64,000 bases of DNA from Linnemannia elongata (taxonomy: Eukaryota > Mortierellomycota > Mortierellomycetes > Mortierellales > Mortierellaceae): positions 1,302,001-1,366,000 of the forward strand of contig JAXBDG010000002.1 in assembly GCA_036320915.1 (NCBI GenBank). Reading direction: 5' to 3'. The notes below the pieces were generated by a model. That model searched no databases and was not told the DNA's origin. It saw nothing but the letters and a program-made list of their open reading frames with translations. The position numbers and the translations under genes are program-made. Of this stretch, positions 1,144 to 27,302 are shown one piece after another. How positions within the stretch are numbered: the stretch's first letter is position 1; each line of letters starts with the position of its first letter.

Positions 1144-4100
1144 CGAGAGAGATGGAGAGATGGACGGAGAGCATCAAGAGAGGCTTATGTTTCTTTGATG
1201 GTTTTTGACTTTGTTATTGTTATTGTTTTTTTTTGTGTCACGACGATGTTTGGTTGCGTTTTAGTCGTTGCCGTCTCTTTTCGTCCATTCCACGCATGCT
1301 CGTTTGCACAATATGAAATAATAAAGTCGGTTGGCAACAGAATTAACGTCAAACATCCTGCAGGGGTAAGCGTTGATATGATTAGCCAGACAGGGGTTTA
1401 GGTCTGAATTGACTTTTTTTTTTATGGCTCCCCCTGTTGTTTATACATACTTTGTGCACTCTGTCACTTTCTCAGACATTGCCTTACTACTCACCACCAA
1501 TGGATGGCGTAGACAATAACGCATTTTAATAAAAGTGGATAGGTACTTTCCTTTCCTATGGCTGAGGAGATGAGAGAGAGAGAGGAGCGGTGCCCTTGTT
1601 TCTGAGGGATAATTGATGTGGACATAAAGTGGGTCTGTGGAGAATTCACATCAAGGCGTATGTTTGTTGACTGTGGGGGTGAATTGTGAGTAACAAACGA
1701 GGGTGTCTAGACCTTTCTCGTTTGCTATTTGTCTAGGTGGCACCTATAGTATGTCTGATGCAAACGAAAGCTGGTCGATTTAAGGTGTCGACTGTAGTAT
1801 TAACTTTCGGTTGTGATGTACAATACTAAAGAGATAGTCTTCTGTCCAGTGGACATGAATGGGGGTGTGTATGTCACCTTCCTGTTCTTTGTTTGTTTTG
1901 ATCAGTAGCTAATGATCAAAGGAGGGCGAAAAAATCGGTGAAATTAGTGGCGTTCGTCTTCACTGCGCACACGCAAACCTGAATTTTCAAGCTGAGAAAC
2001 AGCCAGCCTTACCACTTCGAAGTACAGTACTGTAAGGTCTCCATGGTCAATGGAAGTGAAGGAGGTTTACCCTTTCCACATCCGCATAAAGAGTGTACTG
2101 CCGAAGTAGTGCTCACTTCACGTGATGTGAAACCGAGAGGCCACCCATCCCCCAGGTCTTCCTCCGCTACAGACTGAATTACTCAGACAGCAGCTCTGGC
2201 AGCGGCAATGATGCAGCGCTGTAAATTGCCACTAGGCAAAAAATTCATCCGCTGGTTGCCAGGCCTATGTATATACAACGTGCAAACTCATTCCTTCGCG
2301 GCTCCCTCCCTTTTCCTCTTAGCCAGCTCTTCTCGCCGTGATATGAGCCACATTGTCTTGCTTTCTTTCATTGTAGGTGTACGTACCGTACACGACAGTG
2401 CTCGCTGGTTGTCCATTGAGATGTTCTATACGCCGCAATCATTTTATCTGCATCTCAATTGGACTGGATCAATTTTTTTTTTGCTGTAAAAAAAAAAAAT
2501 TGCTCACAGGGACAAGAAAGCAGACTGGAAATACATCATCGATGTTATGGTTTTGCACATGGAGCATTGAGTTCTTCTATTGTTCCAGGATCCAGGGGTT
2601 AACAATAATACAATATAATATTTTTTTTTTACTGAGCTGAGCCAATCCGGACTCAATAGAGATGGGAAGTACCTATTGTTATCCCTTCCGCTGTCTAATC
2701 GCCTTACATCCATATATTCCCCTTTAGATGATTTACTAGTATGCTAATAAACACATGTAGCAAGGAACATACATCTTTTCTAATTGTTTTCGCAGTCGAG
2801 ATAGAGAGCCTGGAATAAACGAACGACAGATGGTGATCCAGAGGAAGGTACCATCATTTTCGCGTTTTGTGAGGGAATAAAAAAAAAAAAAGGGGGGGGG
2901 GGGGGGGACAGAGGGAGGGGGGAGGAGGGAGGCGATGAAGGGGCTGAAAAAAGATGGAGGTTGATTGATTGACGATGCATACAAGGAATAGAAAAACAAA
3001 ACAACAAAAAAAAGAGCATCCCGCAAAGCGGGGTGGTTTGTGAAAGAAGAGAGGTACAAGAAGGGAGTTTAGTTTGAACGGCGGGTGGAAACGGACATCA
3101 AATAGGAGAAAGAGAGAGAGAGAGAGTGGGTGAGAGAGAGAGAGGGCTGGGCAGTGTTTGTCGTTTTGTCTACTCTTCCTTTTTTTTTTTTTTTTTTTTT
3201 TTTTTTTCACTTGATGATGATAATGCTGGCAACGGACAAACTCAAAAGTTCGCCACGTTTTCGTATTCTTTGCTTTTTCCTCTGATTTCTCAAACCTTCA
3301 ATCCATTACACACTCTTACCTTTCGTTTCTGATTATTGACTTGGGCTGACTGCCTGGGATGTTGGACGGAGCTTGATGTAGGCTGGGCTGGGCGGTTATT
3401 GGGCTCACTAACCTCACTTCGCTTTCTCTCATCTTCTTCATACCCTTTTTGGCCTATCCACTCGCCGTACACACCTATGCCTCCCACTTTCTTTTCCGTA
3501 TCTTTCCTACACGTTACGCTCACTCACCTGGTTTTTTTTTTTTTTTTTTAGGAACCGGTTGTCTATCCTACTCCTTCGGTTCCAATCAGTTTTTTTTTCA
3601 TTTCCAGGCGGGCGGACGCCATGTGGATGAACGTATTGCAATATGAGCGAGTGGCGGAGGATGGGACGAAAAATGAGGGTGAATATATATACAAAATGGG
3701 CTGCATGTTGCTGTTTGCTTGCATATATTATTGACACTATCCGATGCGCCCGATGAATATTAGTTGCCTCACTTATTTTTTATGTCCTGGTATAGTCCTA
3801 CCCATGTACCCACACCCATGAGTGGTATGTGTATATATGCAAATAGTACATGGGTGTCTGAAAAGACCCTCCGCTGCGGGATATGGATAGGAAAGAGTGA
3901 GAGAGAGCGAGCGAGCAAGCAGGGAGGTCTCAATAATAAAACTGCAACATTGTCACCGGACTTCTGGGTCATGTATGCCTATGGAGTACCTCTCTGTAGT
4001 CCGTACGGCAGACAAGAGAATCGCAAAAAAAACAAAACAAAAAACAACAACAACAACGACAACAACAAAAAGCGACGATGGAAGGAAATGCGGAAGGTGG

Positions 4101-8850: not shown

Positions 8851-9946
8851 ATGACAAGATACACAAAACTGGAACGGAAACGCCATGTCGATGCCGGAGA
8901 GGCCTTTGCAGTCACTCCTCTGATGCCCGCCAAGCAGGTCCAGACGCCTGCCCCCGCTGCACCTGCACCTACTCCCAAGCCCGAGGGAGATAGCAACAAC
9001 AACAAGAAGCGGAAAGCAGAGGATTCGGGAGCACCAAAGGAGAAAAACACAGAGTCAGGAGCAGCTCAGGGCGAAGGTGCAGGACCTGGACCTTCCAAGA
9101 AGAAGAAGAATAACAAGAAGAAGGGTGGTGCCAAGGAGGGCAAGGATGGCAAGCCTGCCGCGCCTGATCAAGGTACTGCCTCGAGTGTTCCATGTCAGAA
9201 AAAAAAATGAATGTTGAAGGCCAGCATGTAGTTTGTTGGTGGTTCGAGTTGTCGTGTTTCTAACGTTTTCCCTTTTGATCTATTCCCAATGGCTATTAGA
9301 TATGAAATCTGTCAAGTCTGAGAGGAGACGGTTGAGGAGACAGAAGGAGAGGGGCAATGCATCTGTAAGTTTCGTGAACTGGGATGAGAGGGCGCCGCAA
9401 ATCACTGATCTTGAAGCAACAGATCAAACTTTCAAAGCAAAGGGGGGAAAAGCTAACCGGTTCGTTTTTTTCACGTCCCCTCAACAGGTCTGCTTTGCAT
9501 GCCGCAAGACGGGACACAGCGCAAAGAACTGCAAGGAGAGCACAGGAGTCGGGATGTGTTATAGCTGCGGGTCATTGGAACACACAACCAAGGATTGCAA
9601 AAAGCTGTCCAAGGATGGAAACAAGTTCAAATTTGCCACCTGTTTTGTCTGTAAGGAACAGGGCCATTTGGCAGGCGCCTGCCCCAAGAACGAGAAGGGA
9701 TTGTACCCCAAGGGAGGGTCATGTCGGTTCTGCAACAAAGTCGATCATTTGGCGAGGGACTGTACGTTGACCAAGGAGGAGGTTGGCACGGTGACCCTAG
9801 GCAAGATTGATTTGGTCCAAGGAGCGGATGATGATGATTTCCATATCTTTGTGGATGAGAAGCGCAAGCTGACGGAGGAGCAGAAGGCAGTCAAGCGGAT
9901 GGTCAAGGCCCCCGTCAAGGCAGCCAAGAAGGTCGTTTCCTTCTAA
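8851..9946 (+). CDS. CCHC zinc-knuckle RNA-binding protein, ZCCHC9-like
   Basis: Three exons fit: 8851-9172, 9300-9364 and 9488-9946, giving 281 aa. The N-terminal third is a basic, low-complexity Lys/Ala/Pro tail with nuclear-localisation-like clusters. An Arg-rich stretch follows ('SERRRLRRQKERG'). Then come four CCHC knuckles (C-x2-C-x4-H-x4-C): 'CFACRKTGHSAKNC', 'CYSCGSLEHTTKDC', 'CFVCKEQGHLAGAC' and 'CRFCNKVDHLARDC'. The end is acidic then basic (Asp run followed by 'FHIFVDEKRKL'). Four knuckles with this tail match ZCCHC9 and its fungal relatives, which are nuclear or nucleolar and RNA-associated; that role is inferred here. The second intron is 123 nt with no in-frame stop, so a retained form would insert 41 residues before the first knuckle. 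Confidence 0.85.
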
Positions 9947-21572: not shown

Positions 21573-23739
21573 ATGCCACTGTCACAGGAATCCATCGCAG
21601 CCGTACTTTCATACCTGGACCCATACCTCGACACCCTCGAAACAGGATTCCCAACGTCAACACGTCCCAATGAACCTTTGCTGACAAAGGAGCTCAAGCG
21701 CGCAAAAATCGAGGCAACCCTTCAAAAGGACGCAGCCATCTTTCTGGCCAAGTGGGGCTCCGTTATCCTCTACCCTCGGCCACAAGCAAAGATCGACGCT
21801 GGCAGCGAAGAGCCTAATGGTGTCAGCAGCGAGGCGTCACATAGAGTTGACTCGCTCACGTCTGCAAAGAACATTCTCGATTTATTTAGCCCCCTAGCAG
21901 GTGTGTAATGGTCAAGGTTGTGGATGGATTCGACATATTAATCACAAGGGATTGTTGCGTCTCATATTAACATTCCAATTTCGTTATTTTAATACTATAG
22001 TTGACTATGAAGTCAGGCATCATCTCACTAGGCTTTACCAACAGCTACAACAGCTCATGGAGCACGCCAGCTTTGAGGCATCGAGGCAGCAGCGACAGGA
22101 TCAGAGGCGGCCAACAGGATCCAGCAACGCCGATATAACCACAAGCAATAGTGTTCACAATCGATCGCACGGCTATAACCCAACTTCGACCACAAACTAT
22201 ATGGACATTGACCCCGATTTGTCAGCACAACAACCTAATGGCGATAGCAGGGACATCCCAGAAGAGGATCGCAAACCAAATCCGGGACAGAACGACCTCT
22301 TTACACGATCGACACTTTCACAGAAAACTCGTCGGAACAGGCGTCTAAACTATTTACTCCGCCACCTTGCGCCTCCAGATGCCAGTGGTGGATCCCCTGG
22401 TGTTGCTGCTGGCGCCTCTTCTACGAACTCCGCCTCCAGTGCCTCACGAGCCAAGGATGCCTCTAAAGGAACGTCGTCGTCTGCAGGGGCAAGTCAGAGT
22501 ACATCCAGTCGAGATCCTCGCAACCCGACCTTGGCCAGCATATTGTCCATCTCTGGATCCATGTCCAACCTCAGTTTCTCGGAGTCCACATATTTCTCGG
22601 ATGCAGAGATGGAAGCCAGGGCACCAGATCTGTACCAGCAGTACATTGGCCGATTCATGGATCAAGATGATGACCGGGACTCACAAGGTGAGGACGAAGA
22701 GGAGGAAGAGGAGGAAGATGACCAAGGAGAAGTGACAGGGGCAGAGGATGCGGATGACGAGCGAGAGGACACAGACACCAGACAGTCTTCGGCATCTCCT
22801 GAGCCGTTCGGCAAGGACGTTGGGTTGGTCGATCGGATACTGTGGAATATTGACCACCCGACAAGGAAACAGCAAAAGAAGCAGCGTCAGCAGGAACTCG
22901 AGAGGAGGAAGGAGGCACAAGAACGCAATGCAGGAGAGGCTCTCTCATCGTCCCAAGCCAGTACAGGGTCTTTGCACCAGCAGCAACGGTCTGCTGCTTC
23001 ACACGATCTGACAGATGCAGCAGTCGCACCCGCGGCTTCGGCATCTGAGTTTGAGGAAGAGTTTGACACCGAGAGTGAAGTCGACGATGCTGACATGGAG
23101 GATTCTGCTCAAAATCAGGAAAAGACATCAGAGCGAGGCGTGGAGGTGGAAATAGATGATCGTAAAGGTCCATTAAAGGACGTTGCCGACGACCAGCTTT
23201 TGGCCACGACCAGTGTCACTCCACCAATCCCTCCGACCCCGGTCCCTGGCATTGTATCATCAACATTTGCATCAGCAGCCATGACATTGGAGCAGCCCGA
23301 GAGTCGAGCACGATTTGCGGCGCTGGAGAGCGGGAACGGATTAGGTTCTTCTGAGGACGAGTCACCCGAGCTGGATCAGGAAACCAAGGAACGGAAAGAG
23401 GATCAGGAAATGCTTCGGCAGGAGTTTGTGTTGTTGATGAAGCAGCGGTTTTTGGACGGACTCGATTCGCAATTTGACTACTCTTTGGTTGACTTTGACG
23501 AAGACCTGGATGATCTGGAGCAGGAGGATCATGATGTGGAGGATCGATACTTTGACGCGGAGGATGAAGACGATGAAGACGATGATGATGATGGCGAGAT
23601 TTTGGACGGGCAATTGAGTTCGAGGCGACAGGTGGGCAGAGCTCCTGACTCTGGGCACCCGAGGCGGATGAATTATGACGAGCGAGTTCAGGCATGGGAG
23701 AATAGCGCACAGAATGGAGCTGGTGATTATGACTATTAG
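21573..23739 (+). CDS. CCDC97: CCDC97-family protein, splicing-associated
   Basis: Two exons, 21573-21900 and 22001-23739, give 688 aa. The conserved N-terminal part holds 'FLAKWGSVIL' and 'DYEVRHHLTRLYQQL'. The middle is a long Ser/Gln/Ala-rich, acidic insert with poly-Glu (near 'EDEEEEEEEDDQGE'), and it contains 'RRNRRLNYLLRHL' and 'LVDRILWNIDHPTRKQQKK'. The C-terminal signature is 'FVLLMKQRFLDGLDSQFDYS', then 'EDRYFD' and a poly-Asp tail, as in the CCDC97 C-terminal domain. Human CCDC97 is much shorter (~340 aa); the excess is low complexity. Association of CCDC97 with SF3B/U2 components is known from interaction studies, and the divergent pairing with U2SURP agrees with that. Coiled-coil content appears modest. 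It is tightly convergent with the next gene (48 bp between stops). Confidence 0.83.
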
Positions 23740-23787: not shown

Positions 23788-25500
23788 TTATGAAACAGCG
23801 AGAGGCAATAGTTCGTGCTGTTGCTGCTGTTGTGGATGTACTTGTTGTTGTTGCTGCTGCTGTCGTAGTCGTTGCTGCTGCTGATGCTGGAAAAAGAAGT
23901 CCTGAAGCTGCTGTTCATAATGCCTCCGCTCCTGAATCAATCCTTCATAAAACCGAACCTTCTTACTCACCCCCGGACAGACCATCCAGGCCGTCCTCAC
24001 CTCCGTCCTTAACATATGCCTCTCATTCATCACTACTGCAAGACTGGGTCTTTGGTGATACAACCAATGCCCCAACCGCTCCCCCTTTAGCAAAAAATTT
24101 AATTGGGTCGCTAGTGGGACCAGGTCCTTGGAGGTCGAGGTGTAGGCGATCAGATGGTAGGCATGTAGGACGGTTGCGGTTTTCGGGGACTGGTTGAGTT
24201 CTGAGGGGGAGGGGCGGCGTTGGACAAGGCGTGAGAGGCGATCTCGGTCCATTGCTTTCCGGAGGAGCTCGATTTTTGGGATAAGCACGTTGCTGATAGA
24301 TTTCTTTTGGCGCTGTGCTCGGGGTATTGTTGGTCCTTCTGACGATGGTAATGGCGATGAAGAGATCATGGCAGAGTTTGAGTTGGATTCCTGTGTGAGT
24401 TGGTGGTGGGAGTGTTGGTCGGTATTACTATCAAGGATATCGAAAGGATGCACTCCATCGACTTGCATGGGCTCAAACTGTTGCAGATCAGGTCGCTTTC
24501 TGTAGTAACCGTACTCCTCCTCTTTCAGTCCCTCATTCTCCACTTCCTCATTCCACTGTTGCTGTTGCTGCTGCTGCTGCAGTGGCTGCCGTTGATTCCG
24601 TTGCTGCTGCTGATACAACTTCCACCTTCTCTTCATCTCAAACTCCTCGCGCCCAAAAAACATCTCTTCCGGAATCAACCCCCTCTCGACCATCTCTGTC
24701 CAATCTGGCCTTGCCTTCAACTTTTTCGCAATCCGAATACTAACCATCTGTCTCTCCAGCCGACACGAGATATGGTACGACCGGACTGAGGATGCACCAC
24801 CAATGTACTGTCCCTGCTGGATATGTTGATGAATATGAATACCGCGGAGGATGTTTTGGTGGACAAGGGTGTCGCGGGTGGGACGGGTTTGGAGGGAGAC
24901 GGAGAGACGGGCGGGGTTGCGGATTAGGAGGATGTGTCGGCGGAGGGGACCATCCATGGTCAGGTTACGTAATTTCTTGCAGGATTGTGCGATGCTCTAT
25001 CACGATGCGAGGTAGTCTTAAGTTAGTGCATGGTTCCCCAAACGAAAAAAAAAATATGAAGGAAAGAAAGAAGGAAGACAAAAAACCACATATCGCAGTA
25101 AAGGAAAATAGAAACGAAATGACCCATGTTTGTCTACGTGAATGACCACGTTGTCCGTTGGACGGGAAGGACATGGTTTTTGCACAGACAAAAATTAATA
25201 TTAGAAACAGGAGGGAAAATTTTTTATGTTGTTCACCATGCGACGCAGAGAAGGAGGAAGTGAGAGGATAAGGAGAGGGAGAGTTAGTTACCGGAAAGTC
25301 AGTATCCTCAGCATACTATAACAATGATACGATGGGGAAGAAAAGACAAAGAGAGAGGTGATCGTCTGGTCAGCGAACTGCTTATCGTTGAAGGCTGGAG
25401 ATCGCTCTGACAAACCGACAAAATGGGAGCAAAAAGTGAGTGCGTGTCGTACGGTCAAGAGGTGATAGAGGATTTCGTCTGGGAGCTCAAGGATCGACAT
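23788..25500 (-). CDS. F-box-like protein with three RPEL-type motifs
   Basis: Three minus-strand exons fit in phase 0: 25500-25453 (16 codons), 25315-25292 (8 codons) and 24996-23788, giving 426 aa. Spliced, the N-terminus reads 'MSILELPDEILYHLLTYAED', then 'TDFPSIAQSCKKLRNLTM', a short F-box-like helix set. Three RPEL-like motifs follow: 'LQTRPTRDTLVHQNILRG' (~59-76), 'KKLKARPDWTEMVERGLI' (~115-132) and 'RLSRLVQRRPSPSELNQ' (~277-293). Poly-Gln stretches separate the second and third motifs and fill the C-terminus. F-box proteins recruit Skp1/Cullin ubiquitin ligases, and RPEL motifs of MRTF/Phactr proteins bind G-actin. A link between the two is inference. The 24-nt second exon is needed to join the F-box. 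Without it the protein would start at the internal Met38 and lack the F-box. Confidence 0.7.

Positions 25501-27250: not shown

Positions 27251-27302
<52 letters not shown>

Follow-up and report, generated by a model that had tools for sequence, protein, structure and literature searches.

The minus strand of the window, which is the whole 64,000-nucleotide stretch of Linnemannia elongata DNA that was analysed, carries a gene predicted to join an F-box to an array of RPEL motifs (Table 1). Splicing of its 48-, 24- and 1209-nt exons (window 25500-23788) gives a protein of 426 amino acids with every join in phase 0; left unspliced, exon 1 runs into a stop after 70 amino acids. P0001, an annotated L. 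elongata protein, is also 426 amino acids long and is 98% identical to the window protein over the whole query. An earlier note, made from the sequence, had joined the 48-nt and 24-nt exons in phase 0 to the long open reading frame, and that assembly is borne out by the GT..AG introns and by the matching length and identity of P0001. From the N-terminus, the domain order is an F-box split by the introns, RPEL1 about six residues further on, RPEL2, a basic element, a degenerate RPEL3 and a conserved C-terminus.

Converging on this gene is a CCDC97-like neighbour on the plus strand (window 21898-23739; PF09747, E 8.5e-21), with 48 nt between the two stops. The window also holds an open frame with zinc knuckles (9218-9946, plus strand; PF00098, E 1.8e-15), which may encode either a retroelement gag or a protein that binds nucleic acids. 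A run of 51 Ts lies at 27252-27302, about 1.75 kb upstream of the F-box/RPEL gene, and six further T runs of at least 20 occur in the window.

Table 1. Coordinates of the exons, introns, domains and motifs of the F-box/RPEL gene in the window, and of the motifs at the two other RPEL loci of the genome.
Feature	Position	Strand	Description
Exon 1	25453..25500	minus	48 nt; MSILELPDEILYHLLT; F-box first helix
Intron 1	25316..25452	minus	137 nt, GT..AG
Exon 2 (microexon)	25292..25315	minus	24 nt; YAEDTDFP
Intron 2	24997..25291	minus	295 nt, GT..AG
Exon 3	23788..24996	minus	1209 nt including stop codon; F-box end, RPEL motifs, C-terminus
F-box-like domain, residues 3-47	24928..25494	minus	PF12937; interrupted by both introns
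RPEL1, residues 59-75	24844..24894	minus	LQTRPTRDTLVHQNILR; PF02755 27.8 bits, cut-off 23
RPEL2, about residues 111-133	24670..24738	minus	RPDWTEM core; 12.2 bits, under cut-off 23
Basic element, residues 253-259	24292..24312	minus	RQKKSIS; conserved, upstream of RPEL3
RPEL3-like half-motif, residues 278-291	24196..24237	minus	RPSPSEL, without NIL half; 3.9 bits in P0001
Possible fourth RPEL-like site, residues 332-353	24010..24075	minus	One residue too long; best HMM score 1.2 bits, in P0017
Other RPEL locus L003	1010-1381, 1291-1617, 1694-1936		Three clear RPEL motifs, separate open frames
Other RPEL locus L002 (C15 locus)	981-1130, 1477-1635, 1949-2224		Three clear RPEL motifs, separate open frames

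The two small F-box exons are supported because gene models of relatives carry the same N-terminus. Among 34 aligned homologue models, the whole N-terminus with the eight residues of the microexon is found in 20, one of which (P0005) has additional residues following the microexon. Three models lack those eight residues alone; in P0007 and P0022, LLT abuts the first residues of exon 3 directly, and P0034 has LLA in place of LLT. A further model, P0028, has an unrelated start and retains the exon-2 residues. At least 19 of the first 37 residues are absent from ten models, four of them (P0004, P0008, P0025 and P0030) starting exactly at Met38. We infer that the Met38 starts reflect gene finders overlooking two tiny exons. 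The models without the microexon fit conserved junctions combined with an overlooked 24-nt exon. Alternatively, they may reflect regulated or real skipping of this exon.

The earlier note had described the N-terminus as F-box-like and had proposed searching the spliced protein with RPEL and F-box profiles. This search upheld the description, with PF12937 (F-box-like) at 26.9 bits against a curated cut-off of 24.3 and PF02755 (RPEL) above its own cut-off; the related profile PF00646 (F-box) reached 19.7 bits, under its cut-off of 20.5. Judged by sequence only, the F-box has an LPDE core of the LPxE type that contacts Skp1, with P7 and D8 in 23 of 24 aligned homologues and E9 in all 24. The F-box of human FBXO31 (5vzt) is a weak match over 37 residues (E 0.046), a likeness confined to the F-box, as the alignment stops short of the RPEL part. 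The Linnemannia genome has a large F-box repertoire, with at least 150 F-box-like matches (150 scored among 689 candidates). The window's F-box is absent among the matches listed, which is expected because the domain is split by introns.

RPEL1 is the strongest of the window protein's motifs, scoring 25.7 bits in a six-frame search and 27.1 bits when the excised piece was compared with the Pfam profile. Excised RPEL2 scored 12.2 bits, and the corresponding pieces of P0021 gave 18.6 bits for RPEL1 and 20.0 bits for RPEL2, both below the cut-off of 23; the excised RPEL3 and RPEL4 pieces gave no Pfam match. We also built a custom HMM from 12 RPELs outside the Mortierellaceae F-box/RPEL family, namely three from MAL, three from Phactr1 and six from loci L002 and L003 of the Linnemannia genome. 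On P0001 it scored RPEL1 at 17.9, RPEL2 at 6.3 and RPEL3 at 3.9 bits. As a control, 3400 shuffled family proteins gave at least 4 bits in 10 cases, at least 6 in three and at least 8 in none. Scores from this HMM are low in some homologues: for RPEL1, P0026 and P0030 score just 3.0 bits, and P0038 and P0040, which have RS instead of RP there, give no motif-length match; RPEL2 has 1.1 bits in P0031 and 2.5 in P0034; and RPEL3 drops to 0.4 bits in P0038.

The residues expected of an RPEL are well retained in the first motif, with R62, the NIL and the helix-1 leucine invariant in all 31 aligned sequences and P63 in 29 of them. The glutamate position of its RPxxxEL is threonine in 18 of 31 and glutamate in only three, these being Actinomortierella models with RPSRVEL or RPSRGEL. 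RPEL2 has Arg-Pro in 34 of 34, with glutamate (29/34) or aspartate (5/34) at the glutamate position. RPEL3 likewise keeps Arg-Pro (32/32) and E290 (31/32), and its second half is mostly NQSP, not NIL. Around RPSLA and NER lies a fourth, well-conserved site (R340 in 31 of 32, P341 in 32 of 32), suggested to be RPEL-like mainly by eye. The HMM scores and family conservation therefore point to two RPELs, one half-motif and one suggestion. Of the three RPEL motifs claimed in the earlier note (RPTRDTL, RPDWTEM and RPSPSEL), all are present and the first two are convincing, but the third lacks the NIL half and rises only slightly above chance.

Two further segments are conserved across the family. 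The basic element, RQ[KR]KSIS, has R253 and S259 in 32 of 32 members and K256 in 31 of 32, and is a possible nuclear import signal. The C-terminal 90 or so residues are also well conserved.

Protein searches at E<=10 returned 38 matches for the whole protein, 43 for a 12-row alignment and 33 for residues 1-140 of P0009, amounting to 43 distinct proteins. Every homologue with an organism name belongs by taxonomy to the Mortierellaceae, across eleven genera, a family-only result that holds within the reach of a search relying on shared 5-residue words and similar length. The family analysis used 34 of the 43 proteins; the other nine (P0006, P0023, P0024, P0027, P0029, P0037, P0041, P0042 and P0043) are short, partial, unnamed or repeat species records. 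Pfam at E<=0.1 recognised RPEL in 30 of the 34 members, F-box-like in 25 and F-box in 19. In precomputed Pfam results, PF02755 and PF12937 occur together in five of the 43 (P0001, P0011, P0021, P0038 and P0040). Searched with the protein, the Linnemannia genome gives a single match at E<=0.01. Collectively, these sequence comparisons indicate that the F-box and RPEL architecture is real and conserved in Mortierellaceae, and that the gene is single-copy in the Linnemannia genome.

The same genome encodes a Skp1 domain and cullins, as well as a near-canonical actin (L009) that matches, over 342 residues at 711.9 bits, the actin common to structures 4b1x, 4b1y and 4b1z. The second of these is the Phactr1 RPEL3-actin complex, as given in the available text of the Phactr1 study (PMC8629116). 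Another actin candidate, L008, matched no solved structure at E<=1e-100. The RPEL profile found six matches in the genome at three loci, two of them besides this gene; the third motif of L002 (1949-2224) is missing among these profile matches.

Structure prediction was weak throughout. The AlphaFold2 model of the full-length protein has a pLDDT of 56.0 and a pTM of 0.27, and that of P0039, a naturally short homologue, has 60.6 and 0.36. The F-box part of the P0039 model has helices at 8-20, 24-38 and 40-50, where pLDDT is mostly about 50. Foldseek returned three matches at E<=10, none of which reached E<=0.001. We consider these predicted models too weak and draw no support from them.

The protein is most likely an SCF adaptor with a G-actin-binding RPEL array, as judged from its predicted domains. 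The earlier note had proposed a ubiquitin-ligase adaptor whose activity or localisation responds to the G-actin pool, a reading that is partly supported and reasonable given the two modules. The fuller mechanism that we prefer, with confidence a little short of even, is of a Mortierellaceae F-box protein that docks on Skp1 and SCF, binds G-actin through RPEL1 and RPEL2, and has its client breakdown controlled by actin occupancy. The F-box would dock on Skp1 and thereby join an SCF ubiquitin ligase, and RPEL1 and RPEL2 would bind monomeric actin, as do the RPELs of MRTF and Phactr. Bound actin might then hinder the binding of Skp1 or a partner beside RPEL1 or mask the basic element, and client breakdown would thereby track the G-actin pool. 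Competition of G-actin with Skp1, a client or nuclear import is expected by analogy with Phactr1, in which RPEL-bound actin blocks importin and PP1, according to the available text (PMC8629116).

In favour of this explanation are the two domains over their cut-offs in one protein, their recognition across the family, the conserved Arg-Pro pairs and RPEL1 NIL, the presence of Skp1, cullins and actin in the genome, the single copy, and the effect of RPEL-bound actin on importin and PP1 in Phactr1. Mutation of the RPEL arginine or proline also impairs actin binding in related systems: in scapinin, an RP-to-AA change in motif 2 abolished it, according to the available text (PMC2626280). Counting against it are the threonine for glutamate in RPEL1, the sub-cut-off RPEL2, the RPEL3 without a Pfam match, the weak RPEL1 in four homologues and the weak models. 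The available text on scapinin describes a construct with a single RPEL that did not bind actin, which we also count against it (PMC2626280). On the supporting side again, the R507A change in RPEL3 of Phactr1 lowered affinity about 18-fold, as stated in the part of that study available (PMC8629116).

The main rival, somewhat unlikely and still a serious alternative to actin as a regulator, is that the RPEL array serves as substrate receptor, such that, when G-actin is in excess, SCF ubiquitinates either monomeric actin itself or a protein that actin carries. In F-box proteins, the substrate is usually held by the part after the F-box, and here Pfam found no known interaction module after it other than RPEL. 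However, actin bound to the RPELs of Phactr1 acts as a regulator in the available text of that work (PMC8629116), and the conserved C-terminal segment could hold a different client. Additionally, a 2026 review, in the portion available, assigns gamma-actin to the E3 TRIM3 and names no F-box protein for actin (PMC12868001).

As a doubtful alternative to both, the F-box might bind Skp1 outside an SCF ligase, leaving the protein as a G-actin buffer or scaffold. Yeast offers examples of non-SCF uses of F-box proteins, and the presence of cullins alone does not prove that this protein uses them, but no sequence feature speaks for a buffer or scaffold. Also doubtful is that the RPEL sites have drifted, losing actin binding and serving some other contact. 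The threonine at the RPEL1 glutamate position in 18 of 31 and the low scores of the window protein's RPEL2 and RPEL3 would suit such drift, yet RPEL1 keeps its arginine, NIL and helix-1 leucine in all 31 sequences, and Actinomortierella retains RPSRVEL or RPSRGEL. Finally, it is very improbable that the gene model is wrong and translation begins at Met38 with no F-box, as in the four models that start there, given the 20 of 34 that retain the entire F-box with the microexon, the GT..AG, phase 0 introns and a spliced N-terminus that exceeds the F-box-like cut-off.

Much work has established RPEL proteins as sensors of the G-actin pool, and the known animal examples have transcription, PP1 or Rho-family GTPases as their targets. 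MRTF and Phactr are not known from this fungal lineage. The effector domains of the MRTF, Phactr and ArhGAP12-type families include SAP, RhoGAP and the like, none of which was found by Pfam in the spliced protein at E<=10. We call the F-box/RPEL combination unreported because the literature searches turned up no protein described as combining the two; the earlier note, too, had known of no characterised protein with an F-box followed by RPELs, and none with that order emerged. In the available text of one basidiomycete genome paper, fungal RPEL appears as an annotation name. The architecture brings two known modules together in a new way and is conserved within a single fungal family. Through such a fusion, ubiquitination in this fungal lineage would be coupled to the state of actin, and protein breakdown could come to depend on the condition of the cytoskeleton. 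Tentatively, we suggest that the SCF adaptor reading may extend to a fungal SCF ubiquitin ligase that monomeric actin gates directly, in which the RPEL sensor would act through protein degradation and not through control of transcription, a phosphatase or a GTPase.

Several known systems resemble this putative adaptor in part. The stand-alone fungal RPEL repeat proteins of the same genome (L002 and L003) also place RPEL motifs in a fungus, with three clear motifs each and no F-box seen in the stretches read. MRTF-A/MAL likewise has an RPEL tandem near its N-terminus that reads G-actin, as described in the available text (PMC2626280). Unlike MRTF-A/MAL, the Linnemannia protein has no SAP or other DNA-regulatory domain in Pfam and has an F-box instead. 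Phactr1-4/scapinin, which bind PP1, share with it the tandem RPELs and a basic element adjacent to an RPEL, the latter corresponding to the nuclear import signals of Phactr1 in the part of that study available (PMC8629116). In contrast to Phactr1-4/scapinin, the Linnemannia protein matches no PP1-binding domain family in Pfam; it carries an F-box, and its RPEL3 is degenerate.
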